Shown here in pieces: positions 4,577-29,073 of a stretch of 63,398 nt of DNA. Every line of letters starts with the position of its first letter. The first letter of the stretch is position 1. A program made the translations under genes and the position numbers. The stretch comes from Nitrospirota bacterium (GTDB lineage: Bacteria > Nitrospirota > Nitrospiria > SBBL01 > JAADHI01). The stretch covers positions 1 through 63,398 of the forward strand of contig JAJDBW010000041.1 in NCBI GenBank assembly GCA_029261155.1. The letters run 5' to 3'. The notes beneath the pieces are model-generated. The model worked only from the letters and a program-made list of their open reading frames with translations. It searched no databases and was not told where the DNA came from.

Positions 4577-4999
4577 TTAAACCGCCTTTGCTTTTGAGGT
4601 TTCGAGCGCTTCTTCTGGAAGGTTGCCAATTTCCACCCAGGCCTCTCGCAATGCGCTGAGTAATTGCTCCACTTCCTTCAAGGCCTGAGGATCACCCTTC
4701 AGGTTCGCATGCAATAATCTCCGCGTCATGTATTCGTAAAGGGCCGAAAGGCTCATCGCTATCTCACCGCCCACTTCGTGGTTTAGGCTTGCGTGCAACT
4801 CACCAACAATGGCAATCGCTTTGGTGATCGACTCCCCTTTCCCAGACACATTTTGTTGCTTGATATGCTCTTGCGCAGCCCAGATGGCCTTCAGTGCACC
4901 ATCATACAACATTTGAACCAATCGAATTGGACTGGCTGCGGCGACGTTTCCGGAGAGATCCACTTGAGCATAGGCGCGATGACTTCCCATAGATAACAT
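4577..4999 (-). CDS. fliS: Flagellin-specific chaperone FliS
   Basis: Cytoplasmic export chaperone that binds the C-terminal helix of flagellin and prevents premature polymerisation. The 140-residue protein has the FliS core LVQMLYDGALKAI near residue 28 and the YEYMTRRLLHANL segment near residue 89. Its ATG overlaps the fliD stop by one base (TAATG), so translation is coupled. A second in-frame ATG three codons in is an alternative start. It sits between fliD and a fliT-like gene. Confidence 0.93.
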   Translation of the reverse strand: MLSMGSHRAYAQVDLSGNVAAASPIRLVQMLYDGALKAIWAAQEHIKQQNVSGKGESITKAIAIVGELHASLNHEVGGEIAMSLSALYEYMTRRLLHANLKGDPQALKEVEQLLSALREAWVEIGNLPEEALETSKAKAV

Positions 5000-6756
5000 T
5001 AGCTTCCCCCAACAATATTATTCGCGATACTGGTTATCGATGCCAGTTGTTGCGAAAGAAAATCACCCCCGGCTTGGAGGCGCGCCAAAGTCTCTTCCAT
5101 CGCAGAAAACTGACTAATTAGGCTGGCCTCTTTAATTGTCAGCCGACGTCCGTAACTCTCTATCCGATCCTTCGCGTTCTTCACCGAAGTATTCAAGCCA
5201 TCAACGCGAAAAGGAATGAGTGAATTGACATAGTTGTCAACCGTGTCTTCCAAAGACTCGGCCATTGCGTCGACCGAGGCCAGCAAACCCGTAACATCAT
5301 TGTCAACGGCATTACCGAGAATGGACTCATCTAAAGAAAGAACCCCTTCTTTGCTGTGGCTCAGACCGAAACTGGCGACCGTATTTCCCGCAAATTTCGT
5401 CGTAATCGCCGATCGCAAACTATTGATTAAACCGCGTGTCGTGCTGTCTCCATTTAAAAGATTTCCTCCGCCAGAGGAGACCGTCTTCGACAAACTCACC
5501 ACTTTATTGTAACTGCCGGCAAAACTATTGATATGCTCGGTAATACTCGTGAGGTCTTTCGATAAAGTCAGGGTGACCGTCGGTTTTGCGGTCGGCGCAC
5601 TCAATAAGTCGAGGGTCACACCCGTGATGATATCGCTAATTGTGTTTGAGCTACGCGTCACGGTTAAACCGTTGATATCGAGAGAAGCATCCACGGCCGC
5701 TTGAGATTGGGTCAGGCTGCGTGTCCCCCCCGTGGTCGCCCCAGCGGAATCGTAGGTGGCATTGAAAGCCAAGCGAGAGAGGCCCTCCAAATCCGTTTCG
5801 GCGGTGGCCTCTTCATGGGTTCCGTTATTGTCCTCATCAACGGTAACGATAATACGATTCAATTCTCCTGGCCCTGACGGTGTAAAGGTCAGGCGTGCAC
5901 CATCTACGGCATTGTCGCTGGTAATTAAGCTTCCCACCGCAATGGGTGAATGACCCGTTCGATTGAATCCGAGGATCTCTTCAGCCGTGGTCCCGGAATT
6001 TTCGCTTAAAAAATCGACGGCATTTGCGTTTCCCGAATCGTTGGTGATCGTGAATTTTTTTGTCGTGACATCGTAGGCCACTGTATAGGTATCGCTTCCG
6101 GCGTTCGCCGCTTCAAGTGCGGTCTTGATTTCAACAGCCATTTCGGCTCCCGTATAGGTTCCGGCCGTCAAGGTCGCCGTCCGATCCGCCCCGTCATTAA
6201 AAACGACGGCATTGTTCGTGCTGTCGACGACAAAACCGACATTCACAATGGCGGCCGTCACACCGACACCGGCATTGTTGATCGCATCCTTAATGCCCGA
6301 CAAGGTATTATTGGTGGAATCGATGGTAATGGTTGAAGCGGTCCCGTTTCCAACCTTTACCTTGAGTTTTTGGCTTGCGACTGTGGTCAGATCGGCCACA
6401 GCAGAAGATGCAGACGAAAAAATGCCGGAATACAAGCTTTGAGAGGTCGCCAAATTGTTGACCTTGATGCTGTAGCTTCCTACGGCTGCGGTCGATTCGG
6501 CACTTGCCGTCAGGATGGATGTATCCGAAGACCCGGCGGACATGGCAAAAATCGTATCGTTTTTTAGTGATGCTAAGTTGGTCTTCAGTGTAGAAAGCGC
6601 GCTTTTAATACTGCCGTAGGCACTAATTTTCGCCTCGAAAGCCGCTTGTTTTCCCTGAATAACAGCGAGCGGTCGACTCTCGAGCGCCATCAACTGTTGA
6701 ATCACTTCATCCGTATTGATCCCGGAAGAAATCCCTGTCGAAACCGATAAACCCAT
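4999..6756 (-). CDS. fliD: Flagellar filament cap protein FliD
   Basis: Forms the cap at the filament tip under which secreted flagellin folds and polymerises. The 585-residue protein starts with the FliD_N signature SSGINTDEVIQQLMALES and ends with a helical FliD_C region containing KDRIESYGRRLTIKEASL and LARLQAGGDFLSQQL. The middle (about residues 120-330) is Thr, Ser and Ala rich and variable, as expected for the surface-exposed part. It follows flaG by 6 nt and overlaps fliS. Confidence 0.95.
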   Translation of the reverse strand: MGLSVSTGISSGINTDEVIQQLMALESRPLAVIQGKQAAFEAKISAYGSIKSALSTLKTNLASLKNDTIFAMSAGSSDTSILTASAESTAAVGSYSIKVNNLATSQSLYSGIFSSASSAVADLTTVASQKLKVKVGNGTASTITIDSTNNTLSGIKDAINNAGVGVTAAIVNVGFVVDSTNNAVVFNDGADRTATLTAGTYTGAEMAVEIKTALEAANAGSDTYTVAYDVTTKKFTITNDSGNANAVDFLSENSGTTAEEILGFNRTGHSPIAVGSLITSDNAVDGARLTFTPSGPGELNRIIVTVDEDNNGTHEEATAETDLEGLSRLAFNATYDSAGATTGGTRSLTQSQAAVDASLDINGLTVTRSSNTISDIITGVTLDLLSAPTAKPTVTLTLSKDLTSITEHINSFAGSYNKVVSLSKTVSSGGGNLLNGDSTTRGLINSLRSAITTKFAGNTVASFGLSHSKEGVLSLDESILGNAVDNDVTGLLASVDAMAESLEDTVDNYVNSLIPFRVDGLNTSVKNAKDRIESYGRRLTIKEASLISQFSAMEETLARLQAGGDFLSQQLASITSIANNIVGGS

Positions 6757-6762
6757 ATTTAG

Positions 6763-7113
6763 TTAAGCCTCCACATCAAGTATGTTCCCGAAGCTTTCTC
6801 TTAAGGCTTCCGCCGCATTCAAAAACTCTTCGGAAGGAATCTGTTTCAGCACGCCCCCTTCTCGATCTACAATGAGAATAATGGCGTTCCCTTCCTCATC
6901 AACTGAAAACGAGGCCTTATAGGCCACAACACTCGACTCAAGCTCTTCAAGATTTAGGTCTTGAGACAATTCCTTGGACGGTTCGATCGAAACACTTTCA
7001 GGCGCTTCGATCTTTTCCTTCCCTTCTTGTCCCCGCGTTGCTTTTTTATTCGATTGATTTTCAGAAGACTTTTGGAGCATTGGCACCGCGAAGCTGATGC
7101 TTTTAATCTCCAT
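6763..7113 (-). CDS. flaG: FlaG family flagellar protein
   Basis: A 116-residue protein with a basic and acidic linker in the first half and a FlaG domain from about residue 60. The domain contains SVDEEGNAIILIVDREGGVLKQIPSE as two pieces, SFSVDEEGNAIILIV and GVLKQIPSEEFL. FlaG proteins sit just upstream of fliD in many polarly flagellated bacteria and influence filament length; the mechanism is not settled. A good Shine-Dalgarno (GAAGGAG) precedes the ATG. First gene of the flaG-fliD-fliS-fliT unit. Confidence 0.88.
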   Translation of the reverse strand: MEIKSISFAVPMLQKSSENQSNKKATRGQEGKEKIEAPESVSIEPSKELSQDLNLEELESSVVAYKASFSVDEEGNAIILIVDREGGVLKQIPSEEFLNAAEALRESFGNILDVEA

Positions 7114-7249: not shown

Positions 7250-8782
7250 TTATTGTAACAAGGCCAACACGTTTTGAGTCAGCGAATTGGCCTGCGAAAG
7301 GACTGAAATCCCGGCTTGTTGCAGGATCAAGGCTTTCGTTAGATTCGCAGTCTCCATCGCAAAGTCCGCATCCAAAATTCGTGAACGCGCGGCAGTTGCA
7401 TTTTCTCGCACGTTCTCGAGGTTGGAAATCGTAGACTCCATCCTGTTCATCGTCGCACCCAAGGTCGAACGCTCACTATTAATCGTATCGAGACCCTGTG
7501 TCACGGCAAGCAGTGCGAGGTTCGCATTGCCAACGGTGGTCACGTCCACATCGTTGATGGACTTGGTATTCGTCAGCGATACCGCCGTGGCGGTCGAAGA
7601 AAGCCCCAGGGCCAAACCGTCTGCGCCGGTATTAATGGAACGCGAGGTTGTGCCCAATGGCGTCGCGAAGACGATTTTCCCGTTTTGTCCAGCAGAAGTC
7701 GACCGGCTCGAGGTTCCGAAGAAGGCCGCCGCAGTACTGGCCGTGCTGGCCGCCGTGGTCGAAACCGACACCGAAATCGCCGCACCGGTGATGTCCACCA
7801 GCGCAATGCTGTAGGTGCTGGCAGCCCCCGTGTCGGCACTACCGAGCACGATGGCCGTGACGCCAGTATTCGTCGTTTTATTGTTAATGGATGTCACCAT
7901 CGCAGATGCCAACTCGGCCACACTGGAACTAATGGCTGCCGTTGAAGCAATCGAAACACCGTTGATGGACAGGTAGCCCGAAGTCACATCCAAATCGGAG
8001 ACGCTGGCGGCCTGGGCAACGGCCGCAGACCCAATAAGGGCGTTTCCAAAAGAGAATGCCGTGGTGTTATGGGTACCCGTCTTTTCGTTGACCCGGTTAA
8101 TAATGTTCAAGCTGTTGTTGACCGTATCCGAGGTCGTCACCGCCTCCCCAAGATCCACACCGTTGAGCGTTGCGGAGGTCGACATCCCGGTGGCACGAAG
8201 CGTCATGGCGGCAAGCGAACTGGCCAAGGCCGTCCGGTTCGCCGCTGTATCGGTAAAATCGCTTTGGGTAGACTCCACACCGAAGGTATCCGGTGAAACG
8301 TTGGAGGTGCTGACGGTGATGTTTTCGTTCACTTCCGTCCCGACCTGCAAGGTGATACTCGTTCCCTTGTTCAAGAACTTATCGCCGTTAAAACGGGTCT
8401 GGGTCACGATACGATTCAGCTCCGCGATGAGCTGCTGAACTTCGTTATCCATTGAAGTTCGGTCAGTCGATGTATTGTTACTGGCCGATTGAAGCGCCAA
8501 CTCGTTGATCCGCTGCATGGCGTTGATCATCTCGTCCATCGCGCCTTCCGCCGTTTGCGCAAACGAAATACCATCGCTGGCATTCCGGATGGCCACGCTC
8601 AAACCACTGACCTGCTTGGTTTGCCGTGTCGCAATCGCAAGACCGGCAGCGTCGTCTCGGGCTGAGTTAATTCTCAAGCCGGAAGATAAGCGCTGCATGG
8701 CCTTCGCAAGAGGCGCTTCTGTTTTTCTAAGGTTTCTCTGAGCATTCAGAGAGAATAGGTTGGTATTAATTCCAAGAGCCAT
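7250..8782 (-). CDS. fliC: Flagellin
   Basis: Filament subunit of 510 residues. The conserved D0/D1 N-terminus contains LNAQRNLRKTE, LSSGLRINSARDDAAGLAIA and NRIVTQTRFNG. The C-terminus contains RSRILDADFAMETANLTKA and ends in a run of hydrophobic residues (SLTQNVLALLQ) that FliS would bind. The central 150-400 region is unusually rich in Ser, Thr and Ala, offering many O-glycosylation positions, which fits the adjacent nonulosonate operon. It is monocistronic, preceded by a sigma-28 promoter and a structured leader, and followed by a long hairpin. Only one flagellin gene is visible in this window. Confidence 0.96.
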   Translation of the reverse strand: MALGINTNLFSLNAQRNLRKTEAPLAKAMQRLSSGLRINSARDDAAGLAIATRQTKQVSGLSVAIRNASDGISFAQTAEGAMDEMINAMQRINELALQSASNNTSTDRTSMDNEVQQLIAELNRIVTQTRFNGDKFLNKGTSITLQVGTEVNENITVSTSNVSPDTFGVESTQSDFTDTAANRTALASSLAAMTLRATGMSTSATLNGVDLGEAVTTSDTVNNSLNIINRVNEKTGTHNTTAFSFGNALIGSAAVAQAASVSDLDVTSGYLSINGVSIASTAAISSSVAELASAMVTSINNKTTNTGVTAIVLGSADTGAASTYSIALVDITGAAISVSVSTTAASTASTAAAFFGTSSRSTSAGQNGKIVFATPLGTTSRSINTGADGLALGLSSTATAVSLTNTKSINDVDVTTVGNANLALLAVTQGLDTINSERSTLGATMNRMESTISNLENVRENATAARSRILDADFAMETANLTKALILQQAGISVLSQANSLTQNVLALLQ

Positions 8783-9584: not shown

Positions 9585-10475
9585 ATGGACCAGTTAAAAG
9601 TATTCCATAACCCGGAAACCGGTAAAGACATCATCTTGGATCCACGTACAACGCTCAGGGCGGAACACCGACTGAATACCGTAATGCGCTACGCCATCAA
9701 TCACGCATTTTCGCTTCACGTCGCCCAACGTCAGGCCTCGCGAAACGATTATCCTTTGATCCGGCAAGGCTTCGATTGCGTTCCGGTGATCACGCAAGAT
9801 ACGGCTTCAACACTGTTAAGACATTTGAAAACCGAATACCTCGACAAGCAACACCTGGAACATCCGCCGGACCAACAAGAGTTTCCCTTAATAGAAAAGA
9901 AGCTGTTTATGGGCCTGCTTGAAGAGATTTTCCAAGGAACGGTCGATGACATGATCCTTTCCTATTTTCAAAGCGAATACACGGTTCTATTTTGCTCGAT
10001 GATCGTCACCTATCCCGTTTCAGAAAAAGACATTACTTTTAAAGGGATTTCTTTCAAGTGGCACAGCGATGTCGCGCCGGACTATCACTTAAAATTACTG
10101 GTCCATCTTAACGATGCGGAAGAACACAAGGGAGGGACACAATGCATAAACCGCGAACACACAAAGCGGTTTAAAGAAATCGGCTACGTCTTCAACGATC
10201 TGGGCAATCGCCTCTCGGACCTGAGCCAACTGGCTAAACAATTTAACATCGACCATGAAGAAACCTTGCTCAGCCCACACACAGGGGAAGCCATTATCTT
10301 TCAACCCAGTAATGTCTTGCACCGCGGATCATGGCCGGCACAAGGACCGCGCTATCTGATCAATCTCGGCCTCGTCCCCTCCCGCATCCCATGGCGTCAA
10401 ATGGTCGAGCAGGACTTCGAAGCCATCGTCAACAATACGGAGTCGATTTTTCCGGAACTGAAAGTTGTCATTTAA
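9585..10475 (+). CDS. Fe(II)/2-oxoglutarate-dependent oxygenase (PhyH-like)
   Basis: A 296-residue soluble protein with the metal-binding triad of the family. HSD in FKWHSDVAPDY (near residue 165) gives the HxD pair, and the distal histidine is in NVLHRGSW near residue 246. An arginine in GPRYLINLG about ten residues later would bind the 2-oxoglutarate carboxylate. Such enzymes hydroxylate or desaturate small molecules or protein side chains; the substrate cannot be read from the sequence. An AGGAGG Shine-Dalgarno precedes the ATG. It is followed 40 nt later by a methyltransferase, opposite a sugar-modification operon, suggesting a role in tailoring a glycan or cofactor. Confidence 0.75.
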   Translation: MDQLKVFHNPETGKDIILDPRTTLRAEHRLNTVMRYAINHAFSLHVAQRQASRNDYPLIRQGFDCVPVITQDTASTLLRHLKTEYLDKQHLEHPPDQQEFPLIEKKLFMGLLEEIFQGTVDDMILSYFQSEYTVLFCSMIVTYPVSEKDITFKGISFKWHSDVAPDYHLKLLVHLNDAEEHKGGTQCINREHTKRFKEIGYVFNDLGNRLSDLSQLAKQFNIDHEETLLSPHTGEAIIFQPSNVLHRGSWPAQGPRYLINLGLVPSRIPWRQMVEQDFEAIVNNTESIFPELKVVI

Positions 10476-10515: not shown

Positions 10516-11304
10516 GTGGAAGATGTATCGGTCTCACAGGAAGACATGCTCGCGATTAACGAGTACCTTCAGAAAAACCCCTTGGATCTATTTAAGATTC
10601 CCAATGTCTGCGCCCTGCTCTCGGCCAGGCGCATACAAGGAATAGATCGAGATCACATCAAAGGCTACGATGGCGACGCGAGTCGACTCAGGAGCAATAT
10701 CATCGAATATAACAAGGACGGCATTATGGGCATGTGGGCGCTCAATCGCCCTTCCCTCCTCATCTGGCCTTTGGTCAGTATCGATTACCTCCGGATGCAA
10801 ATGCCGACGATGAAAGTGCTCTCGATCGGACCACGGGCCGAAGCCGAATTGTTTATGCTGGTTTCCATCGGATTTCGAATCGAAAACATCAAGGCCTTAG
10901 ATTTGGTCTCCTACTCACCCTCCGTCGATATCGGCGATATGCATGCCATGCCTTATGAAGAAGACAGCTTTGATGTGATTTTGCTCGGGTGGGTCATTGC
11001 CTACAGCAACGACAATGCCAAAGTCGCAGAAGAAGTCCTTCGGGTGGCAAAGCCCGGGGCCATTGTCGCCATCGGTTGCGAATACAGTCCCAACGCAGGC
11101 GCTCAGGAAAAGGCGAAAACCCATGTCGAGATCAACAACCCCCTCGATGAAGAGGAGATCGATCCAGACTACTACCTCTGGACAACACAACGGATACACG
11201 ATCTCTTTGGAGATCGTATCGATCGTGTCTATTTCAATCATGACATCCACGAAAAATTCAAGCATCTCACCGGCTGCTGTATTACCATCTTCAGCCTAAA
11301 ATAA
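10516..11304 (+). CDS. SAM-dependent methyltransferase-like protein
   Basis: A 262-residue protein starting at GTG, with AAGGAG nine nt upstream. A class I methyltransferase core is visible: a motif I-like strand and loop MKVLSIGPRAEAEL (about residue 97), an acidic strand end KALDLVSYSP (about 128), then AMPYEEDSFDVILLGWVIAYS (about 145) and EVLRVAKPGAIVAIGCEYSP (about 175). The glycine-rich motif I is weak (SIGPRAEAE), so cofactor binding is likely but not certain. Probably co-transcribed with the oxygenase gene. The target is unknown; filament glycan or flagellin methylation is a guess from position. Confidence 0.65.
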   Translation: MEDVSVSQEDMLAINEYLQKNPLDLFKIPNVCALLSARRIQGIDRDHIKGYDGDASRLRSNIIEYNKDGIMGMWALNRPSLLIWPLVSIDYLRMQMPTMKVLSIGPRAEAELFMLVSIGFRIENIKALDLVSYSPSVDIGDMHAMPYEEDSFDVILLGWVIAYSNDNAKVAEEVLRVAKPGAIVAIGCEYSPNAGAQEKAKTHVEINNPLDEEEIDPDYYLWTTQRIHDLFGDRIDRVYFNHDIHEKFKHLTGCCITIFSLK

Positions 11305-11489: not shown

Positions 11490-13505
11490 TTAGCTTTTAA
11501 CCTCCAGTAAATCACCAGCGAAGGCAACAAAGTCCTCGTCTTTCGGAAGCTTCCCCGTCCACTTCGCAAAAAAGCGGACCCTATTTTTCCACTGGGCCTC
11601 CGTGACATCCTCGCCAAAATAACTCTCTTTATATTTCACGGCTAAGGCCTCTTTCACATAATGGATTCCGATACCCTGCTCTTTTCCTTTGAGACAAAGA
11701 TCGGCCTCGATTAAATGATTGGCGATGTCTTCATCGAAACCTTCCAGCTTATCGAAAGCAACCCGTGGCAACGCAAGAATACCACCGCCTACAGCTTCCG
11801 GCGGTTTGGTTTCATCGACCACGCGATAGGGGCTGGCGTTAAAATCGAAACCAATCCCTAAGCAATAGGGTGCCATATCCGCATCTCTCACTGGCATGCC
11901 CACGATGCCTTTTTCAAGGCCCGAAAGAAGTCCTTCTGATTTTAAAAACAAGGTCCCCGGCGTCATGAAAATCAGGTGCTCACCGGTCGCATCCTGGAGC
12001 CCGCGATTATAAAGCGCACCCAAGGAACCATTTTCGCTTTCCACGATGCGAAGATCGCCTGATAAACCCGGAAGCAAGCCCCGAACTGCATCGTGATGCA
12101 CAACCAGAACCACCTCCCAATCCGGGAAATCCACATGCTGTGTTAATGAAGTGAGTGTCGCGACCAAGGTTTCAGGTTCCGCACCGGAAGGCACCACGAT
12201 GCTCACTCGTCCCGGAACAGGGCTTTGTTTTTTATCTTTATTGATCATCTGTTTCCTCCTACTTTTAAGACGACTTTCTGACTGGACGCTCAAAATAAAA
12301 TGCATGCAATCGATCGCACGCTCCACCGAGCGACCATCCAACTTAAAAAAGGCATCACTGAGATAGGCATCGACATTGTCTTGAATCTCGGAAGGCAGAC
12401 CCGTTTCAAGGGTCTTAAAAAGCGCCGACCAATTTCCCGGAGGGAACACGCTCTGGGCGATCCCCGTTTTGACATAGTAGTCCTCCAAGGTATCGGAGTT
12501 CGGCAAGGCAAAGAGCGGTTTACCGAAGGCCAAGGATTCGATCGCCAAAGTCGTCTTCCCCATCGTCACGCAAAAATCTGAAATCGCCAATAGTTGGTAG
12601 GGCTCATAATCGTACAATAAAATAGCGTCCGGACATAAGGATTTAAAAACCGTTTTAATCTCGTCGTAGGTGTTTTTCATCACAGCCGGATGCCATTTAA
12701 AGATCAGTGTCGCCGCCGCATCGAGTCGGTCGAGTCCTTGCAAAAAAGTCTTCCAGGTCTCTTCTTTGGTAATCGCCCCGTATTTAATATCCACGAGAAA
12801 AAGAATGACTTTTTCTTTCAAAGGAATGTTCAGTTCTTCTTTAATTTTCGCAATCGCTTGTTTCGACGAATAACGTTTGACAGCGCTTTCTATATGCGTA
12901 TTCCCGATTAAAAACATCTTGTCTTCCGAGCAACGATACTCCCGTAAACGACGCCTTGTTTTTTCGCCCCATAATAAATCGGCGACTGAATATTCTGTGT
13001 GTAGAACAAAGCCCATGTAGTCGTTGTAATAATCCCCTTCCTGAAAGGTGACAAAAGGAATCTCTTTTTCTCGGCAGAGATGGCCGATGACTTGCCCCCA
13101 TCGATTGCATTCATGGTGGGCGATAAACATGTCCGGTTTTTCGACCTCCATAAATGCTTCGATGCAAAAATATTCTTCTACCACACCCTCGAAAAACCAG
13201 CTTTGTTTAAAGAGTGGCCAACGACTAAATCCGTCCCATTTAAAACAGCGCGTTGCCCAATCATCCATGAGCGCTGTGGTAGAATGCTTAATTTTCTCCT
13301 TCACCGCGGGACTCATGTAATCTCTAAAATAACGGAAAGACAAGTTACGGCGGATGAGATCCAGCTCGTAAGGATAGCCCCCCAAGGTCACGATAAAAAT
13401 CAGCTCGCCGCCTTCCTTTTTAATCTCCTCACGCATTGCAATAAAAAACCGAGAATGGTGCGGCAAGGCTAAAAAACAAGCGACCTTCTTTCCTTTTAAT
13501 TTCAT
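11490..13505 (-). CDS. Two-domain glycosyltransferase (GT-B fold plus GT2-like)
   Basis: 671 residues. The N-terminal about 400 residues look like a GT-B enzyme of the CDP-glycerol or nonulosonate transferase type: LFLVDIKYGAI, FKWHPAVMKN near residue 282 and MGKTTLAIESLAFGKPL near 326 form the donor-binding C-lobe. From about residue 430 a GT2-like domain begins with VSIVVPSGAEPETL, but I do not see a clear DXD, so it may be degenerate. Last gene of the operon that starts at pseB, overlapping the preceding gene by 4 nt. It is the best candidate for the transferase that attaches the nonulosonate to flagellin or extends it. No Maf-type flagellin transferase is seen. Confidence 0.65.
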   Translation of the reverse strand: MKLKGKKVACFLALPHHSRFFIAMREEIKKEGGELIFIVTLGGYPYELDLIRRNLSFRYFRDYMSPAVKEKIKHSTTALMDDWATRCFKWDGFSRWPLFKQSWFFEGVVEEYFCIEAFMEVEKPDMFIAHHECNRWGQVIGHLCREKEIPFVTFQEGDYYNDYMGFVLHTEYSVADLLWGEKTRRRLREYRCSEDKMFLIGNTHIESAVKRYSSKQAIAKIKEELNIPLKEKVILFLVDIKYGAITKEETWKTFLQGLDRLDAAATLIFKWHPAVMKNTYDEIKTVFKSLCPDAILLYDYEPYQLLAISDFCVTMGKTTLAIESLAFGKPLFALPNSDTLEDYYVKTGIAQSVFPPGNWSALFKTLETGLPSEIQDNVDAYLSDAFFKLDGRSVERAIDCMHFILSVQSESRLKSRRKQMINKDKKQSPVPGRVSIVVPSGAEPETLVATLTSLTQHVDFPDWEVVLVVHHDAVRGLLPGLSGDLRIVESENGSLGALYNRGLQDATGEHLIFMTPGTLFLKSEGLLSGLEKGIVGMPVRDADMAPYCLGIGFDFNASPYRVVDETKPPEAVGGGILALPRVAFDKLEGFDEDIANHLIEADLCLKGKEQGIGIHYVKEALAVKYKESYFGEDVTEAQWKNRVRFFAKWTGKLPKDEDFVAFAGDLLEVKS

Positions 13506-14674
13506 GCCCTGCCTCCAATTTCCTGAAGCAAATCGTTCATGCCGAGCCTTTTCTGTTTTTCGCCATACACTTTTTTTAATGCGGCAACAAAGTCTTCCGG
13601 TTGGTCGATAAAACGGACCCCATTCACCGGAGATCGTTTTTCATCACAAGGATTATAAACCCAGGACGCCTTTTCATAACGTGCGGCGAATTCAAGGGGC
13701 GTGACATAGGCTGGCGAAATAACGACATCGGACACCATTGCCGTGGGGACCATACTGTCGACTTCCACAAGATAAAAGGGGCAAGCGATTTTTTTAATTG
13801 CCGGAAAGTAGGCGTCCTTAATAATTTCGTCTTCGCTCAGGTCTTTAACGAAGAAATCGCGTTTGACAAGGCTTAAAACGACCGGGATTTTCGACTCAGC
13901 GATCAAATCGAATATCTCCCTCATCTGCGGCCTCAACTTGGCATGGTTGAGAACAACAACCGACAATTCATCGGGCCGAACGGGAATTTGATCGTTATAA
14001 AGGTGGTTCTTGTAGGCGTCCTCTATCGTCGAAAGGGCATAGATATCTTTCGGATCCGACAGGCAAAAGACCTTCGCAGGCGCGATGCCCATGTCGATAT
14101 AAAATTGCCTCTCGAAATCCGCTCTTACAATAATGCCATCCATCAGCCTGGGCATAAGTTTGAAAACATTGAAAACTGGATGTAATTGATAGCCGACAAT
14201 TTTCTTTCCGCCTTCTTTTGCCAAGAGCGCGATGGAGGTATATAAAACATCGGTTTCGTCAAGCGGAAGGTCTTCCCAAGATTGCAGCGGCAACAAAACC
14301 ATATCGGCCTCAATCTTTTTAATCTCCGGAAAAGAACAAGTCGAATAGTGTCCCCAAAGATCGTCGAAGGCCGCCGTTTTCCAGATCTCCAGATCCGTTC
14401 CGGGAATGGTAATCCCCTTCGCGTATCGCGAAAATATTTTCGAAGCATTGTCCCTAAAATCGAAGGTGAGCGGTAAATAGGCGGGCTTAAGACATTTCAG
14501 CTTCAGGTTGGGGCAGGCTTTTAGGCCTTCCTTCAAATCCTCATAGACTGTTTGAGAGGCCGTCCAGACCTCAACCCGAAAGGCCTCGGTCATTTTTTTG
14601 ATCAGTTCCGCGATTCGCTTTTGGCTGCTCAAATATTCCTTTTCACTCATCGGAAATAAAATACTTCGCATCAA
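13502..14674 (-). CDS. GT-B-like protein, probable glycosyltransferase
   Basis: 390 residues, no signal peptide. It contains a Rossmann-like C-terminal half (DELSVVVLNHAKL, PVVLSLVKRDF, MVSDVVISPAYVTPLEFAA) that resembles the sugar-nucleotide-binding lobe of GT-B transferases. I cannot assign a family. It overlaps both neighbours by 4 nt (the TPR gene upstream, the two-domain transferase downstream), so it is translated with them. Most likely it acts in transfer or assembly of the sugar made by the operon. Confidence 0.5.
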   Translation of the reverse strand: MMRSILFPMSEKEYLSSQKRIAELIKKMTEAFRVEVWTASQTVYEDLKEGLKACPNLKLKCLKPAYLPLTFDFRDNASKIFSRYAKGITIPGTDLEIWKTAAFDDLWGHYSTCSFPEIKKIEADMVLLPLQSWEDLPLDETDVLYTSIALLAKEGGKKIVGYQLHPVFNVFKLMPRLMDGIIVRADFERQFYIDMGIAPAKVFCLSDPKDIYALSTIEDAYKNHLYNDQIPVRPDELSVVVLNHAKLRPQMREIFDLIAESKIPVVLSLVKRDFFVKDLSEDEIIKDAYFPAIKKIACPFYLVEVDSMVPTAMVSDVVISPAYVTPLEFAARYEKASWVYNPCDEKRSPVNGVRFIDQPEDFVAALKKVYGEKQKRLGMNDLLQEIGGRA

Positions 14675-15234
14675 AGCGCTCTCACTTCTTTACCCAGATC
14701 GATGAGCTGCATAACCTCAAGGGCCTTTTTAAGACCCTTGTCCTGCGTTTTTTTACAGAGGCCTTCGACAACCCCCCGAATTGCCTCCCCTTCGCTTGCG
14801 CGCTGATAGGCAATGGGAAGCAAGTTGTCGTACATCTCATCCAAAGCCGCCGGATGCGTATAGAGATAGCCGTAGTCTTCCGCATCTCTTGCGCTAAGCG
14901 CCATGAGAAAATGGATGATTTCACCGAGCATCTCGTCGTAGCGCTGATCGTCCAAGAACAACAGGCAATTCAAATACAAAAGGTCCGCATGATTGTTTTT
15001 AACGTGCAAGCCCTCGTCCACCAAGGTTTTGGCCTTTTCCAGGTTGTTGTCCCTTAAGGCAAATTGTACGAGATTGCTCAGGAGCGAAAAATAAATCTTG
15101 TTCTTTTCTGACTTATCCGATTGGGCGAGTTGTGAATAGGCCCGGTTAAAACAGTCCAAGGCCTGTTCCTTTAAATGCAGCTTGAGATAGGACAAACCCG
15201 ATTGATAGTTTGCGTCATAGCTCGATCCCGACAT
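14671..15234 (-). CDS. TPR-repeat protein in the glycosylation operon
   Basis: 187 residues of helix pairs typical of tetratricopeptide repeats, for example SGLSYLKLHLKEQALDCFNR near residue 12 and DNNLEKAKTLVDEGL near residue 62. No signal peptide or catalytic motif. It abuts pseI and overlaps the GT-B-like gene by 4 nt. In Caulobacter the flagellin glycosyltransferase FlmG carries a TPR domain that binds flagellin fused to a transferase domain. A free TPR protein between the synthase and two transferases may do the same job as a separate subunit; that is inference. Confidence 0.6.
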   Translation of the reverse strand: MSGSSYDANYQSGLSYLKLHLKEQALDCFNRAYSQLAQSDKSEKNKIYFSLLSNLVQFALRDNNLEKAKTLVDEGLHVKNNHADLLYLNCLLFLDDQRYDEMLGEIIHFLMALSARDAEDYGYLYTHPAALDEMYDNLLPIAYQRASEGEAIRGVVEGLCKKTQDKGLKKALEVMQLIDLGKEVRAL

Positions 15235-16292
15235 TATTTATCCTCCTCAATAAGATCCCAGCGTAAGGGTGTCCCTCTAGAAATATTCACACGCGATTTC
15301 CTCCCGATGATTTGCGGGCTATATTTTGGATGCAAACCCGCGCTAGGCCGAATCGACCTGAGGTTCGATGCCGTAAAGGTCTCACCATTTTTCATGTCTT
15401 CGACAACAAATAAAGATCGCGCAAATTGCCGGTTCTTCATCGCGCCTTCCGTCGGCCGATATCGGACTTCGCCCAGCGCCGCCTCGGTTTCCCTCACGGA
15501 GGTCACCATGGCCTGAAAGGCATTGGGTGCCAAAGAAAATGCCGCGTCCGGACCACCGAGGGAGTCATCCAAAATCAAATGTTTCTCAATAATTTTTGCC
15601 CCCAATGCCACAGCGGCGATCGGAACCGATGTTCCGAGCGTATGGTCAGATAAACCCGTCACCGTTCTAAATGTTTGCGTCATATCCGACAAGGTCTTTA
15701 GGTTGACTGACTCCAATGGCGTCGGATAAGACGAGGTGCATTTTAAAAGGGCGATCTGATCGTTCCCCATTCGCTTACAAGCCGCAATGGCCTCTACAAT
15801 GTCCTCTCGCGTGGCGATACCCGTCGATAAAATAACCGGCTTCCCCCTCGCGGCTACATACTCGATGAGCGGAATGTCGGTAATTTCGAAGGAGGCAATT
15901 TTATAGGCAGGCACATTCATCTCTTCCAAAAAATCCACAGCTGATGGATCAAAGGGTGAAGAAAAGCAAATCAAGTTCAAATCTTCGGCGACGCGCTTCA
16001 GCTTGGGTTGCCAGTCCCAAGGGGTATAGGCTTCTTGATAAAGTTTATAGAGCGTTTTTCCGTCCCAGGGGCTGCCGTTTTTTATTTGAAAACAGTCTCG
16101 ATCGGAATCCAAGGTCAGCGTATCCGGTGTATAGGTTTGGAGCTTCACCGCATCGGCACCACATTTTTTGGCGGCCTCGAGGGTTTCGACGGCAATATCA
16201 TAGTTTTGCCTATGATTCGCGGAAAGCTCAGCAATAATAAATACCGGCTGGCCTTCGCCGATTTTTCTTTTTCCAATTTGAAAGGTTTTCAT
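15234..16292 (-). CDS. pseI: Pseudaminic acid synthase (NeuB family)
   Basis: Condenses phosphoenolpyruvate with a 6-deoxy-diacetamido hexose to make the nine-carbon nonulosonate. 352 residues. The NeuB barrel is marked by IIAELSANHRQNYDIA near residue 20, ADAVKLQTYTPDTLTL near 46 and VTGLSDHTLGTSVP near 214. A C-terminal SAF/antifreeze-like domain starts near residue 290 (RSLFVVEDMKNGE). LSANH with the following QNYD favours the Pse over the Neu/Leg branch. The start overlaps the pseG-pseH stop by 4 nt. Confidence 0.92.
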   Translation of the reverse strand: MKTFQIGKRKIGEGQPVFIIAELSANHRQNYDIAVETLEAAKKCGADAVKLQTYTPDTLTLDSDRDCFQIKNGSPWDGKTLYKLYQEAYTPWDWQPKLKRVAEDLNLICFSSPFDPSAVDFLEEMNVPAYKIASFEITDIPLIEYVAARGKPVILSTGIATREDIVEAIAACKRMGNDQIALLKCTSSYPTPLESVNLKTLSDMTQTFRTVTGLSDHTLGTSVPIAAVALGAKIIEKHLILDDSLGGPDAAFSLAPNAFQAMVTSVRETEAALGEVRYRPTEGAMKNRQFARSLFVVEDMKNGETFTASNLRSIRPSAGLHPKYSPQIIGRKSRVNISRGTPLRWDLIEEDK

Positions 16293-17767
16293 CCGCTTGT
16301 CTCGATCGAATACAGGAAGGCCTTCGCCTTTTGATTTTCAATCATCACATCGTTGAGATATTTGAAACCACAGGAACTAAAAAGTTGGTTCGAAATCGCG
16401 TTTTCCACTTTAATATAGGCCTTAATCGAGCTGATCTCCGGCCGAGCCTCCTTTAGGCATGCGATCGCATAACGGAGTATTTGCTTCCCAAGATTTAATC
16501 CACGCCATCGCTTTGCGATGGCGATGCTTACCACCGCCCCGTCGACCTCGAGATCGAAGCGCGTTTGCCCCAAAAAACAATCTCCTGCTTCGGCAACAAA
16601 AAAGAGGACGTTTGGGTTTTTTAATTGATTGGCATACCAATCTGTATGGACCTCCAAGGGGATGCTATCCCGATGAAAGGAAAAGGCGCGGACCTCTGGA
16701 TCATTGGCCAAGGTATAGACATCGATCAAATCCGCATGACGCGCCGGTCTCAATCGCATTTGCGTCCGAAGAAAGTCTTTAAAGATTGCATTCACGACGC
16801 GAAGCGATCCCAAACCATCGACGCATTGCCTGCCGATATGGCTCATCTCTTTGCGATAGGCTTTGTCCTTCACAAGATCAATCTTTGCAAGAACTTTTTC
16901 GCGTAGATCTGCGTCATCCCATGCTCCGGCATATTCAAGAAATCCAACCGTCTGCCCGCCGCTTACATTGGCGCTTTGATTTTGAGAGACGGAAACAGCA
17001 ATGAGTGGGACGCCCACCTGGGCACATTCATACACCGTCTGTCCCCCCGCAGAAAAGACAAGATCGGAGGTCAGCATCAATTCCCTCATCTGCGTGGCAT
17101 TGGGATTAAACACTTGTTTAATACTGCAGTCTATTCGCGATCCAATCTCATCGATACCTAAATTTTTATCGAAATCCTTCCCGATCACAACAGTAATAGA
17201 CCAGTGCGGATGATGGTCACAGAGTAGCCTTAAGATCTTTGGCGTCAGTGCACGTGGATCGCTTCCGCCGAAAGTCAGTAATACTTTGACGATCTCGTCA
17301 TTGATTTTCTTTTCAGCCAGCGCCCAAAAGGCCCTGCGCAAGGGGATATAAGGCGTACTTAAGAGATAACGCGTTTCTTTCTTTTCAGGGTAATCGATCA
17401 TCTCCGCGCCAATCGCGCCGTTAACCACCATGCCCGCAGGGTAGTTCAGTCGCTTCTCATCGTCTAAGTAGATTGCCAACTTGCATGTGGCGGCGATCTG
17501 CCCATAGACCGCCTCATCCGCAAAATAGGAATCCACAATCACAATATCCGATCTTTCAATCGCCGTTAGCATCGCCTTACGATCACGATACCATTCCAAG
17601 GTTTGAAGACTTCGGTCGCCGAAATCATCTCCTAAGGCAGTAGAGGACGACACCCACACGCTGGGTTGTATTCCTCTTTCTTCAAAGGCCTCAGACAAGG
17701 ACAGCGCGCGCACAAGATGCCCAGATCCGATCGTACCGCCATACTCCGTTAAAAAACACACCTTCAT
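16289..17767 (-). CDS. pseG: PseG-PseH fusion: UDP-sugar hydrolase plus N-acetyltransferase
   Basis: One 492-residue protein combining two consecutive Pse pathway steps. The N-terminal domain (to about residue 330) is a PseG-type hydrolase that removes UDP: the GGTIGSGHLVRALSLSEA segment carries the catalytic histidine, and LLTFGGSDPRALT and FSAGGQTVYECAQVGVP bind the nucleotide. The C-terminal domain (from about 337, MRLRPARHADLIDVY) is a GNAT acetyltransferase with the acetyl-CoA loop KRWRGLNLGKQILR, matching PseH. In most species these are separate proteins. I chose the ATG at 17767, five nt after the preceding stop. An upstream in-frame start would overlap the previous gene by 17 nt. Confidence 0.88.
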   Translation of the reverse strand: MKVCFLTEYGGTIGSGHLVRALSLSEAFEERGIQPSVWVSSSTALGDDFGDRSLQTLEWYRDRKAMLTAIERSDIVIVDSYFADEAVYGQIAATCKLAIYLDDEKRLNYPAGMVVNGAIGAEMIDYPEKKETRYLLSTPYIPLRRAFWALAEKKINDEIVKVLLTFGGSDPRALTPKILRLLCDHHPHWSITVVIGKDFDKNLGIDEIGSRIDCSIKQVFNPNATQMRELMLTSDLVFSAGGQTVYECAQVGVPLIAVSVSQNQSANVSGGQTVGFLEYAGAWDDADLREKVLAKIDLVKDKAYRKEMSHIGRQCVDGLGSLRVVNAIFKDFLRTQMRLRPARHADLIDVYTLANDPEVRAFSFHRDSIPLEVHTDWYANQLKNPNVLFFVAEAGDCFLGQTRFDLEVDGAVVSIAIAKRWRGLNLGKQILRYAIACLKEARPEISSIKAYIKVENAISNQLFSSCGFKYLNDVMIENQKAKAFLYSIETSG

Positions 17768-17771
17768 TCTT

Positions 17772-18518
17772 TCAAGGCCTTTCGACAAAAACCTTTAAGC
17801 GTTTATAGCGCTGGCTTGTTCCCCTTGCGATGTCATACGTACTATGATAGCTGCCGTCGGATTTCAGGACATAAAAAGAATAAAACGCTTGTATGTCACT
17901 ATGTTTTAAGCCCGATGTCTTGCCGGGTGCCTTCTTGTTAAAAAATGCCGCATGCTTTTCTTGAAGTTCAAGAATTTCACACGGTGTCCGAAAAAACATT
18001 GGATATTGATCCCCCGGACTGTTTAAGGCAAAATATTGCTCTTGCGAATAGTACATCGGCAATTCAACAGGATGAATGTTCCATATCCCTTCCGAATCAA
18101 GCATGGCAATTTTAAATTTTTCGCCGTCTTCAATGCCCCTCTTAATGCCTCCGGTTGAAGAATCTCCTTCGGAGTCCCAGACCAAGCGGTAATTATTTTT
18201 AAATAACCAGTTGTGTTTTCGATATCTTTTTTTATCCATGAAAACACAGGCGTTTGTGCTGGGCGTATAGCTGCAAAAGAGATCCGTAATATTGGTATAG
18301 CAAAACGAACAGGGCGGGTAGATCTTTTCTCCCAATTTATAGCCCGCGTGTACGGACTCCGATTTCCCCCAAAAAGCCTCTCCCTTTATGATTAGGTGTG
18401 GAAGATCGAAAGTTTCGATGTGTTCTGGATAATTGGAAGGGATGGCTTCATCCGGCACCATAAAAGTTCTTAAGGACGCTCCGTTGATCAGTTGTTTTAC
18501 AATATCCTTATCCGTCAT
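17772..18518 (-). CDS. Unrecognised protein in the nonulosonate operon
   Basis: 248 residues, soluble, no signal peptide and no motif I recognise. It has several aromatic and cysteine-containing stretches (YPPCSFCYTNITDLFCSY near residue 68, RTPCEILEL near 183). The C-C pair in PPCSFC could bind a metal, but this is not proven. It overlaps the preceding aminopeptidase-like gene by 11 nt and is followed 4 nt later by pseG-pseH, so it belongs to the pathway or to transfer of its product. The function cannot be assigned. Confidence 0.55.
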   Translation of the reverse strand: MTDKDIVKQLINGASLRTFMVPDEAIPSNYPEHIETFDLPHLIIKGEAFWGKSESVHAGYKLGEKIYPPCSFCYTNITDLFCSYTPSTNACVFMDKKRYRKHNWLFKNNYRLVWDSEGDSSTGGIKRGIEDGEKFKIAMLDSEGIWNIHPVELPMYYSQEQYFALNSPGDQYPMFFRTPCEILELQEKHAAFFNKKAPGKTSGLKHSDIQAFYSFYVLKSDGSYHSTYDIARGTSQRYKRLKVFVERP

Positions 18519-19806
18519 GGCTAAGCGAAATTAAGCCCTTCTCTTCATATTTCTTTATATAAGGATACAGCCTTGCATAATCAATTTCGTGTTTTTCGGC
18601 AATCTCAAAAATTGTGGTCTTTTCATCGAAATAGCGGATCAGGCAGTTCATCAGATGGTTCCATTTTTTTTGGTCTTCCGGCACAGTTGGCCGAATGCTA
18701 GGATCGAAGGTCGAAATATAAAGATCGTACTTAGGATTACTCAGGGCGACCAGGCCCTTAAAGTGCCGTTTCATTGTCGTATTGGTTTCCATGATGTCGA
18801 GCATGCCAAGGACGGCAACCACGGCCTCTTCCAGTTTTTCCTCGAAGATAATGTTTTCGGTATCCAAACTGGAATGATATTCGGGATAAGGCATACGAGA
18901 AAGTGAGATACACGGAATTTCGTAGCCCGGCGCCTCCCAAACCGTTTCATCGTTGCCCACAATTTTTCTAAATTCATCCGAGTGGTATTCCGGAAATCGG
19001 TGTTTCAAAAAATGATGCCCGGCCTTGTCAATTAAAGTATCACCCGTAAAGCTCTCTTGAAGTGCCAAGCGATTTTTATTACCCAGCATCTCGAGGAACA
19101 TTGCATATTTAAAGCTTTGAACCTGTTCATCCGGCATGTTCTTCAAATAAAACACCGTCCCCAAATGTTCCGGGGCGATGATCAGACGATAGCTGAATTT
19201 CCGTTTCTTTATTTTCATAAGGCGTTTTATAATTTCGATACCCACCACAATACCGGAGATGTCGTCGTTTGCTTGTGCCGGATGACAACTATGCGCATTC
19301 AGAATGATGGTTTCTTTACTTTCGCCTTCTAAGAAATAGTCGAGCACCTTCATGGTCCCCGCCTCGTAAACGGTTTCCAGCACCACATCGTAGTCCCCTT
19401 CTTCGAGAGAACGATAAAGATTAAAAGGTACGCACAAGCCCCAAGTTTTTTGCCAAGGCTTGTAATAATAGTCGCAGTGGTAGACCAAAGCCTCGGCATA
19501 ATTGGGGTGATAAAAAAGGTGGTCTTTTAACTCCTTTAAGGACACCCGTCCTTGAAAGGAGGGACAATAGCCAGCAACCCCCAAGGGGTGCTGCATGCCA
19601 TCATAGAGCAAAACACCGTCTTTCCAAATTTCGGCTTTTTGTGCGCCCCATTTTTGGGGAACCGTCCAGCCGTTGTACTCGTCTCCCGAAGCATATTCGT
19701 GGACTGTAAAGGGCAGTTCCTTGCAAAGCAACGTGACGGCCTTATCCCCATCTTCGGAAACGGGCGCAAGGCGCAGGGGACACAGCTTCTTCAACAAATT
19801 AATCAT
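18508..19806 (-). CDS. M28-like (DUF4910-type) zinc aminopeptidase-fold protein
   Basis: 432 residues. A zinc-peptidase-like site is visible: ILNAHSCHPAQANDDISG near residue 169 supplies His and Asp ligands, APEHLGT near 211 gives the glutamate, and PYPEYHSSLDT near 309 a late histidine. The last about 60 residues look like a winged helix (FDEKTTIFEIAEKHEIDYARL). Proteins of this architecture recur in surface-polysaccharide and nonulosonate loci, where they may hydrolyse an amide rather than a peptide; their activity is not established to my knowledge. Overlaps both neighbours, so tightly coupled. Confidence 0.7.
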   Translation of the reverse strand: MINLLKKLCPLRLAPVSEDGDKAVTLLCKELPFTVHEYASGDEYNGWTVPQKWGAQKAEIWKDGVLLYDGMQHPLGVAGYCPSFQGRVSLKELKDHLFYHPNYAEALVYHCDYYYKPWQKTWGLCVPFNLYRSLEEGDYDVVLETVYEAGTMKVLDYFLEGESKETIILNAHSCHPAQANDDISGIVVGIEIIKRLMKIKKRKFSYRLIIAPEHLGTVFYLKNMPDEQVQSFKYAMFLEMLGNKNRLALQESFTGDTLIDKAGHHFLKHRFPEYHSDEFRKIVGNDETVWEAPGYEIPCISLSRMPYPEYHSSLDTENIIFEEKLEEAVVAVLGMLDIMETNTTMKRHFKGLVALSNPKYDLYISTFDPSIRPTVPEDQKKWNHLMNCLIRYFDEKTTIFEIAEKHEIDYARLYPYIKKYEEKGLISLSHDG

Positions 19807-20845
19807 GGTGAACTAAACCCTCCGTATCGTAGACTGCGCAATATCGCATCGCCGCTTCCAATAGTTCCCTCGGGGTATAAAAACGTTGTCCGAGCTTGAG
19901 TGCATGGACTTGGTCTTGGCCCGTCTCATCTAACACGGTCTCGACAAGTATGGCCCCTGATTTCGTTGCCACATAAACCTTCCGGCCATCGATCCGATAA
20001 ATGAGTCCCGATAAGTAAGGGTGAGATTGAAAAGCGTCCGGGACGACACAACACTTTTTTAAAATAACTTTTTGATCGTCGATAAACGTGGCAGCCCCCG
20101 GATAGGGATCGTCGAAGGCGCTCACGAATCGTGCAACCTCATCTCCCGTCCAAGACCAATCGATATAACCCTGGTGAAATGTGGACAACCTAGGAAAGTG
20201 AGAACTGTCCGCCTCATTTAAGGCGCGCAGCGCGAATGATTTTCCGTTTTGAATTTCATCGAGAAAGGTCTGAAACAAGGCGATCCCTTCTTCATGCGCC
20301 GCCTTAAAATAATCCGCTGGTATGCATGCCCCTGAGGGCAATTTGTATTCCCAGCTTTTAATCACCGCGCCCGAATCGTAGACACCGGGAATCATCTCTT
20401 CGTTAATCAACTGTATATGCCATGCGCCGACTCGGTCCTCCCGCAAAATTTGCCAAGTGAAATGAGCCCCGCCGCGATAATGCGGTAAATCGATCACCAT
20501 GAAGTCGACCAGCTTTCCGCCGAAACGTGCGACCGTCTCGCGATTAAAGGTATAGGCCTCGCCCATGCCAATTCCGAGAGTCTTCTCGTTCATCAACTGG
20601 AGAAGCTCCGGTGCTGTATTAATGTCTCCTGCGAGAAAAAAAGGGATCTCCGCCTTTTCCAAGGCCAAGGCCAGGCTTAAGCGATTTTCCTCATCGACAA
20701 TCTCATCGAGATGCCGTTTCACTGCAAAGACAGCGGCATCCATACCTCGCGCGCGGGCCGCCTCCGCAAAGGACACGATCAAGGGCCCACCTCCAAAGAG
20801 GATGACTTTTTCGATGGGCCCCATCTTCATCTGTTTGAGAGGCAT
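19799..20845 (-). CDS. Formyltransferase-family protein (Fmt/ArnA-like)
   Basis: 348 residues with a formyltransferase N-terminal fold and an Fmt-like C-terminal barrel. DLPHYRGGAHFTWQILR near residue 119 corresponds to the HxSLLP..RG region, with the usual first histidine replaced. GAWHIQLINEEMIPG near 139 corresponds to the segment holding the catalytic Asp in Fmt. DDPYPGAATFIDDQKV near 246 begins the C-terminal domain. It would transfer a formyl group from 10-formyl-tetrahydrofolate to an amino sugar. Its presence suggests an N-formyl variant of the nonulosonate. Replacement of catalytic residues means activity should not be assumed. Confidence 0.65.
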   Translation of the reverse strand: MPLKQMKMGPIEKVILFGGGPLIVSFAEAARARGMDAAVFAVKRHLDEIVDEENRLSLALALEKAEIPFFLAGDINTAPELLQLMNEKTLGIGMGEAYTFNRETVARFGGKLVDFMVIDLPHYRGGAHFTWQILREDRVGAWHIQLINEEMIPGVYDSGAVIKSWEYKLPSGACIPADYFKAAHEEGIALFQTFLDEIQNGKSFALRALNEADSSHFPRLSTFHQGYIDWSWTGDEVARFVSAFDDPYPGAATFIDDQKVILKKCCVVPDAFQSHPYLSGLIYRIDGRKVYVATKSGAILVETVLDETGQDQVHALKLGQRFYTPRELLEAAMRYCAVYDTEGLVHHD

Positions 20846-20848
20846 CCC

Positions 20849-21370
20849 TTAATCTCTCAGCTTCTCAACTAAAATTTCATCGACATACTCACCCTTGCAA
20901 AAACGATGGTCTTTTAATCGACCCACCTCGCGATAGCCCGCCTTCATGAAGCCCTTGTAGCTGCCGACATTATTTGCATAGAGTCCGGCGATGACCTTGT
21001 TCAGGTTAAGCTCTTCAAAAGCATATCGGGTTGCGACCCGAATCGCTTCCGTCCCAAAGCCTTTGCCACGTAATGCCTTTTCTCCAATGAGCAGCCCGAT
21101 ATCTCCATAACGATGTAAGGGGTGAATACCTCCAATTTTGATATTGCCGATCTGGCGATGGCTTTCGATTAAATAGATGCCGAACAAAAAGGCATTTGGA
21201 TCTTCATTCACAAGCTTTGCATAGTTCTTTAATTCCTCAAAACCGTAAACCGTCCAGCGACTCTCTAAAAATCGGATCACCTCTTCATCCTGCATCCACT
21301 GTTGATAGGCCAGCGTGACATCCTCGGGAGATAATAGTTTTAAATAAATGCGTTTTTTAATCGTTTCCAT
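20849..21370 (-). CDS. GNAT N-acetyltransferase (RimJ/RimL type)
   Basis: 173 residues, a complete GNAT domain with the acetyl-CoA loop LRGKGFGTEAIRVATRYAF near residue 96 and ANNVGSYKGFMKAGYREVGR near 130, the strand typical of the RimL/SpeG branch. Because PseH activity is already present as a fusion, this second acetyltransferase probably modifies another position of the sugar. Three nt separate it from the formyltransferase start. Substrate not deducible. Confidence 0.75.
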   Translation of the reverse strand: METIKKRIYLKLLSPEDVTLAYQQWMQDEEVIRFLESRWTVYGFEELKNYAKLVNEDPNAFLFGIYLIESHRQIGNIKIGGIHPLHRYGDIGLLIGEKALRGKGFGTEAIRVATRYAFEELNLNKVIAGLYANNVGSYKGFMKAGYREVGRLKDHRFCKGEYVDEILVEKLRD

Positions 21371-25938: not shown

Positions 25939-25994
25939 CTCAACCTCTTTTACGCCCTCCCTTTTCACAATCGAAGGAGCGGCGAGGGATGACT

Positions 25995-29036: not shown

Positions 29037-29073
29037 ACTTTTAGCCTTCAACGCGGTTTACCTTTCTAAGTTA

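Follow-up and report, generated by a model that had tools for sequence, protein, structure and literature searches.

A stand-alone tetratricopeptide-repeat protein and two partner proteins as a proposed divided, Maf-less flagellin glycosylation machine in Nitrospirota

A 63,398-nucleotide contig from a Nitrospirota bacterium (JAJDBW010000041.1; hereafter the window, meaning the whole stretch of DNA analysed) carries three consecutive genes (11490-15234) at the end of an operon for a pseudaminic-type sugar, encoding a small tetratricopeptide-repeat (TPR) protein followed by two larger proteins, here designated P0002 and P0001. The trio probably constitutes a cytoplasmic, Maf-less machine for flagellin O-glycosylation in which acceptor recognition and catalysis reside on separate chains, and the probability that it operates by the steps proposed below is put at roughly 60%. 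The best evidence for this role is that the trio sits where sibling genomes hold single chains combining TPR and glycosyltransferase (GT) domains. The observed part of this reading consists of gene content, conservation, co-occurrence, the lack of overlap with Maf, and the presence of other enzymes in the sibling slot. The draft genome of the window (3.56 Mb, 95.6% complete) was considered together with a phylum comparison set of 395 Nitrospirota genomes, 295 of which were covered by a full-length search for P0001.

The initial annotation, made from the sequence of the window, had placed three genes with overlapping ends after PseI on the minus strand at the end of the sugar operon, and this arrangement was borne out, with no gaps between the genes. 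The 4-nt overlaps that it had assigned to them hold for the P0002/P0001 junction (ATGA); at the TPR/P0002 junction (TGATG) the overlap is 4 nt only with a TTG start and 1 nt with the ATG, which is the sole start available there in the homologue of locus L010. The PseI/TPR junction reads TAATG. Long hydrophobic stretches are absent from the TPR protein, P0002, and P0001, and since all three look soluble, we assume that the reaction takes place in the cytoplasm, like that of the FlmG and Maf systems.

Seven sibling genomes from the same family were compared with the window genome; the flagellin match is clear in six and no stronger than FlgL level in the seventh. The TPR gene is absent from all seven, P0001 is absent from all seven at a threshold of 1e-10, and P0002 was not found in the five for which results were shown. 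The stretch between flgL and fliC is instead filled by other proteins: TPR and GT41 proteins of 1798 and 664 aa in genome G002, and a TPR and GT41 protein of 1115 aa in G003 (Glyco_transf_41 E-values for these chains of 1.7e-109, 2.2e-49, and 3.4e-55). Chains of the GT41 family are of the OGT/SPINDLY type. The same slot in G004 contains a 664-aa protein that is 67% identical to its G002 counterpart. NeuB-family matches in G002 and G003 are only weak (2.8e-9 and 2.4e-10). In G001, which belongs to the same genus as the window genome, the five open reading frames (ORFs) scanned near fliC encode proteins of sensor-kinase, response-regulator, or GGDEF/EAL type, and an island like that of G002 and G003 was not seen. 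Beyond this family, a chain of 1440-2165 aa lies upstream of fliD in all six loci opened (L114-L119) in families f6 (probably Nitrospiraceae) and f13 and, in five of them, also upstream of a recognised fliC; these loci had been picked among strong GT2-domain matches. Two such giant chains were scanned and contain GT, methyltransferase, GT2, and TPR domains. In L118, GT9 and GT1-type genes were also observed between the giant chain and fliC. The variety of enzymes in these positions suggests that Nitrospirota flagellin loci exchange glycosylation enzymes.

Across the phylum set, P0002 is present in 20 of the 395 genomes, which span six families, and the TPR gene occurs in the identical 20. The two genes are adjacent in every one of them, which makes their pairing more than chance. 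The TPR profile reached E-values of 1.6e-63 or lower in exactly these 20 genomes and none better than 7e-08 in the others; because the TPR, P0002, and P0001 profiles were built from the sequences found, high scores for those sequences are expected, and what carries information is that nothing else scored strongly. P0001 accompanies the pair in 19 of the 20 genomes, directly after it in nine and elsewhere in the genome in ten. Its full-length form was found in 17 of the 295 genomes searched, all 17 of which carry the pair, the remaining matches being partial (E-values of 4e-28 or weaker). Unlinked copies of P0001 were noted in family f31 (L103-L113), and in L107 the gene stands next to radical-SAM and GT2-like genes. 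A second family of the order has the TPR gene in six genomes; four of these loci can be read beyond P0002, and in each of them the full trio lies directly upstream of fliW, fliC, fliD, and fliS, with flaG recognised in three and P0001 broken in one. The remaining two loci are cut off by the ends of short contigs, which fall within P0002 or immediately past the TPR gene. In locus L015 (from G017, a single-contig metagenome-assembled genome), P0001, fliW, fliC, the formyltransferase-like gene, and the gene for a conserved 248-aa protein are each split over at least two frames, and the splitting of several genes at once suggests sequencing errors rather than decay.

Proximity to flagellin genes and association with nonulosonic acid (NulO) synthesis accompany this distribution. 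In 15 of the 20 pair genomes, representing five families, a same-strand fliC or flaG lies downstream at a distance of no more than 4 kb (no more than 1.5 kb in 14). In the window, 2.7 kb separate the trio from fliC; no other flagellin was found in the draft genome, the second Flagellin_N match being FlgL. A NeuB match with E < 1e-30 (genomes above this threshold were counted by hand) is present in all 20 pair genomes versus 147 of the 395 overall (Fisher p ~1e-9, relatedness ignored), and in several pair genomes the synthase gene lies away from the pair. The earlier observation that Maf is missing extends to the whole draft genome, where neither PF01973 nor PF20157 has a match; the controls for PF01973 gave matches only in four archaea, and 50 of the 395 phylum genomes, which match PF20157, are its positive controls. 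These 50 (45 above cut-off) include none of the 20 pair genomes. Within genus g119, G312 has the pair, and G214 and G327 have Maf. Alignment of the P0002, TPR, and P0001 profiles with five Maf-containing ORFs by hhalign gave probabilities below 1. GT41 (PF13844) likewise has no match in the window genome. A maf or flmG homologue elsewhere in the genome, which the initial annotation had named as the finding that would explain flagellin transfer differently, was searched for and not found, with PF13844 and the TPR profile as the sole probes for FlmG.

The assignment of the first gene to the TPR superfamily, already proposed for the window, agrees with the sequence motifs and predicted helical pairs of its family. 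The window copy gives a weak Pfam match to TPR_1 (0.038), and 10 of the 25 family members match TPR_8, the best at 9e-08. Its invariant residues are Y6, N9, A25, A32, N45, Y48, G75, D84, and E133. The structure predicted from two sequences is all-helical (mean predicted local distance difference test, pLDDT, of 67); among its best PDB matches in Foldseek, TPR domains are in the majority (probability up to 1.00, query TM-score up to 0.58, none with E < 0.001). Of the 19 weaker matches to the TPR profile, the three that were opened are long TPR proteins with no transferase in sight; what we take to be an ispE-like gene stands beside two of those three. A sequence search of the PDB with all three proteins yielded nothing meaningful, the best match being that of the P0001 profile to UDP-GlcNAc 2-epimerase (E 0.027).

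P0001 is the protein for which a catalytic role can be argued in most detail. The proposal of two GT-B-type genes goes too far: the first half of P0001 (residues ~1-400) is GT-B-like and shows sub-cut-off matches to Epimerase_2, Glyphos_transf, and the BFO_1060 family, the other half (~430-671) is GT2-like, and P0002 falls into no family. A further match under cut-off is to TIGR04396, a surface-carbohydrate family. BFO_1060, for which a link to the Tannerella pseudaminic transferase GtfS is possible, is not mentioned in the literature searched, including the available portions of PMC6120980 and PMC6388019. The GT2 profile is matched by 9 of 11 P0001 members (best 2.9e-09; window copy 23.0 bits against a cut-off of 23.3), and the GT2 DXD motif is missing in all 23 homologues, mostly with F-[MLI]-x-P-G at that place. 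Invariant in the same 23 are QEGD (155-158), KWHP (270-273), and TT (318-319), the E standing 112-116 residues ahead of the H. According to the available part of one study, D/E-D/E-G and HP motifs matter in bacterial sialyltransferases, and in NmB-polyST single Ala changes at E153-G154 abolish activity, whereas those at H278-P279 leave under 10% (PMC2169525). The HP motif is described in an excerpt of another source for beta-Kdo transferases as well (PMC10148158). Because its invariant EG and HP resemble the motifs of transferases that use cytidine monophosphate (CMP)-sialic acid, P0001 is likely a NulO transferase; a CMP-ulosonate donor is supported by these motifs rather than proven, since HP is common to beta-Kdo transferases and loose motif pairs are not rare.

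P0002 has no relative in Pfam, NCBIfam, or the PDB by family search, and only 2 of 23 homologues match Glyco_transf_4 (best 9e-04). The EG/HP pair occurs in none of the 23, and no donor motif was recognised. The ORFs of the 20 P0002 matches span 389-455 aa and are separate from the TPR gene. Alignment of its profile by hhalign with the P0001, GT9, GT1/DUF3880, giant GT, and Maf sets gave probabilities of at most 1.1 with shallow profiles, which lends no support to a shared ancestry of P0002 and P0001. No relatives were found on plasmids (tblastn) or viral contigs (scan), and a scan of genome contigs returned two named loci, in Manganitrophus and Manganitrophaceae, the only named relatives found of the window genome, from another family of the same order (Candidatus Manganitrophus / Manganitrophaceae). 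We infer from the company it keeps that P0002 is a transferase.

On this basis, the following sequence of events is proposed. The neighbouring operon would supply a CMP-activated pseudaminic-type NulO. The TPR protein would dock on newly made FliC and hold its partner P0002, as suggested by their constant adjacency and by what TPRs do in FlmG and Maf-1. P0001 would use CMP-NulO through a site formed by its EG, HP, and TT motifs, with its GT2-like half helping to bind the acceptor or the glycan, P0002 would add the first or a further sugar, and the decorated flagellin would then be exported. A more ambitious formulation, to which we give somewhat less than even odds, holds that the trio is an obligate three-protein machine and represents a third class of system for NulO glycosylation of flagellin, in which a stand-alone TPR protein reads the acceptor, P0002 is a transferase family outside the libraries searched, and P0001 is a CMP-ulosonate transferase with a converted GT2 domain, the whole being swapped as a cassette with Maf and one-chain TPR-GT enzymes in Nitrospirota flagellin loci.

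Several points weigh against a divided glycosylation machine. Binding, catalysis, and the order of sugars are the inferred part of it. P0002 belongs to no recognised GT family, and its AlphaFold2 model, built from three sequences, is of low confidence (pLDDT 41.7), so that its Foldseek matches were left unused. None of the 11 P0001 members matches a sialyltransferase family in Pfam (E <= 0.1), Gln occupies the first acidic motif position where sialyltransferases have D/E, and EG...HP-like pairs arise in 2 of 31 window proteins (one of them P0001) and in 8 of 79 other long ORFs. P0001 was not found in the pair genome G343 (93% complete), is present without the pair in G355 (88% complete), and, being located elsewhere in ten of the 20 genomes, may serve another glycan. 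In the five pair genomes without nearby flagellin genes, fliC and flaG were not recognised in the fetched stretch (four genomes) or flagellar genes lie ~7 kb off on the other strand (one). The non-overlap of Maf and the pair is weak alone (p = 0.06), many Maf matches being partial, and 12 of the 20 pair genomes come from one family and are not independent.

The same observations bear on three other explanations. P0002 might itself transfer NulO to protein, the TPR/P0002 pair being the whole flagellin transferase and P0001 extending the glycan, as Fgi-1 does past pseudaminic acid in Aeromonas. The constant adjacency of TPR and P0002, mostly near flagellin genes, and the unlinked position of P0001 in 10 of 20 genomes would fit this, as would the fgi-1 mutant, which, in the available text of PMC7874193, retains a single pseudaminic acid derivative on flagellin; however, P0002 lacks the EG/HP pair (0/23) and any recognised donor motif, and the co-occurrence of P0001 is stricter than would be expected of an optional extender, making this alternative unlikely. 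The TPR protein could alternatively chaperone glycosylated flagellin, assist its export, or serve as an enzyme scaffold, without conferring acceptor specificity. What is known of it is its fold and gene order, and TPRs bind many partners, but inheritance of the gene tracks P0002 rather than the flagellar genes, as the siblings without it illustrate, and this option appears rather improbable. Least plausible, and in our view very unlikely, is that the trio builds a NulO glycan of capsule, lipopolysaccharide, or pilin and lies near flagellin incidentally: the sub-cut-off surface-carbohydrate match of P0001 and its unlinked copies in ten genomes point that way, whereas the flagellin genes within 4 kb in 15 of the 20 genomes from five families and the TPR-GT41 chains in the same sibling slot do not. 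The idea of a divided, Maf-less flagellin glycosylation machine has strong comparative support, from co-occurrence, flagellin proximity, NeuB in 20 of 20 genomes, non-overlap with Maf, and the sibling TPR-GT41 chains, and the suggestion in the initial annotation that it could be a divided version of FlmG stands as an analogy.

The coordinates of the trio and its neighbours are given in Table 1. The pseudaminic-type operon extends from PseB to PseI and includes the cytidylyltransferase, PseC- and PseG-like genes, and an amidotransferase/HisH/HisF set. WbuX with the HisH/HisF pathway points to an acetamidino sugar, and the predicted product of the operon is probably a CMP-activated pseudaminic-type NulO bearing an acetamidino group. 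Two fusions were noted in the operon, one joining a cytidylyltransferase to a class-III aminotransferase and the other a PseG-like hydrolase to a GNAT domain. The DUF4910/DUF2172 protein is presumably aminopeptidase-like and, we assume, related to Campylobacter Cj1295. The position of its gene beside a formyltransferase-like gene hints at an unusual N-acyl group on the NulO. Cj1295, called aminopeptidase-like, has been tied to di-O-methylglyceric acid modification of flagellin pseudaminic acid in the available part of PMC3068675. Two plus-strand genes occupy the gap between P0001 and fliC in the window; in the four Manganitrophaceae loci that were read, P0001 is followed immediately by fliW and fliC. 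The gene at 6763-7113 is taken to be flaG from its position.

Table 1. Coordinates of the trio, neighbouring window genes, and sibling TPR-GT41 chains
Feature	Position	Strand	Basis or remark
TPR protein, 187 aa, soluble; proposed flagellin-binding adaptor	14671-15234	-	TPR_8 in family, predicted model, co-occurrence
P0002, 390 aa, soluble; proposed TPR-partner transferase	13502-14674	-	TTG start, ATG next at 14671
P0001, 671 aa, GT-B-like and GT2-like halves; proposed CMP-NulO transferase	11490-13505	-	motifs, profiles
PseI, pseudaminic acid synthase (NeuB family)	15234-16292	-	TIGR03586 8.7e-148
PseG-like hydrolase and GNAT fusion	16289-17788	-	TIGR03590 1.2e-38, 133.3 bits (cut-off 153.55, not reached); Acetyltransf_3 9.1e-10
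Conserved 248-aa protein	17772-18518	-	no Pfam match at 0.001; 50-56% identity in Manganitrophaceae
DUF4910/DUF2172 protein	18508-19806	-	PF16254 9.6e-56
Formyltransferase-like protein	19799-20845	-	Formyl_trans_C 8e-14
GNAT N-acetyltransferase, PseH-like	20849-21370	-	PF13302 4.1e-19; PseH 3.6e-10, under cut-off
HisF-like and HisH-like pair	21382-22143, 22140-22784	-	
N-acetyl sugar amidotransferase, WbuX family	22748-23890	-	TIGR03573 8.8e-105
Cytidylyltransferase (CMP-sugar activation) and class-III aminotransferase fusion	23902-26010	-	PF02348 1.1e-20, PF00202 4.2e-53
Aldo/keto reductase-family protein	25995-26885	-	PF00248 2.6e-22
PseC-like aminotransferase	26882-28075	-	PF01041 9.8e-123
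PseB-like dehydratase	28005-29051	-	PF02719 2e-102
FliW	29259-29729	-	PF02623 1.6e-39
FlgL	30000-31214		best PDB match FlgL, 5.2e-20; carries Flagellin_N
FliC; proposed acceptor	7250-8782	-	87 Ser/Thr among residues 151-430
FliD	4999-6756	-	best PDB match flagellar hook-associated protein 2, 1e-24
FliS	4577-4999	-	best PDB match FliS, 7.3e-31
Probable FlaG	6763-7113	-	similar gene, same place in relatives
Gene without family	9585-10475	+	between P0001 and fliC
Methyltransferase	10516-11304	+	between P0001 and fliC
TPR-GT41 chains in sibling loci	L128 3531-6878; L129 3425-10778		

How cytoplasmic O-glycosylation picks flagellin is an open question that is hard to dissect with fused enzymes, and a natural separation of recognition and catalysis would allow reader and writer to be swapped independently. 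In other known bacteria, the attachment of such a sialic-acid-like sugar to flagellin usually falls to a single fused protein or to Maf. The phylum appears to offer several solutions to this one task, namely Maf, the TPR-GT41 chain, the giant GT-TPR chain, and the split set, and within one family different solutions sit at the same flgL-fliC place. The TPR-GT41 chains of the siblings share with the trio the combination of TPR and transferase in that slot, and differ in being fused, in belonging to GT41, and in the weak NeuB-family matches of G002 and G003. The giant chains of f6 and f13, positioned upstream of fliD, carry a GT2 domain related to that of P0001 (hhalign probability 99.4), whereas everything is contained in a single chain of 1440-2165 aa. 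With GT38, GT52, and GT80, P0001 shares a similar placement of EG and HP (E153-G154 and H278-P279 in NmB-polyST, E156-G157 and H272-P273 in P0001), but it has the Gln substitution described above and no match to these families. GlfM, reportedly a four-helix bundle, works with Maf-2. In the part of PMC13317340 available, which cites Unay 2024, GlfM is a separate specificity factor in a ternary complex with transferase and flagellin, Maf-1 has TPR specificity, and TPR-bearing flagellin transferases are predicted in Clostridium. A separate flagellin specificity factor is thus already known; there the transferase is Maf, whereas here no Maf was found and the separate protein is a TPR protein. The closest parallel is FlmG of Caulobacter crescentus, a single 596-aa chain whose TPR part alone interacts with flagellins in two-hybrid assays, according to the excerpt available (Ardissone 2020, PMC7591256). 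In both systems a TPR module goes with a GT-B-type (in the trio, GT-B-like) transferase and pseudaminic acid (here a pseudaminic-type sugar), and Maf is missing, but FlmG is one chain and here there are three, P0002 belonging to no known family and P0001 being an additional protein. PF13844 has matches in Caulobacter, possibly on FlmG, and none in the window genome, so the trio may be viewed as a divided version of FlmG by analogy rather than by shown descent. The literature searched contains no report of a separate TPR gene serving flagellin transferases, and the trio differs from its precedents in having no Maf, a stand-alone TPR reader, a partner from an unnamed family, and an accompanying third protein.

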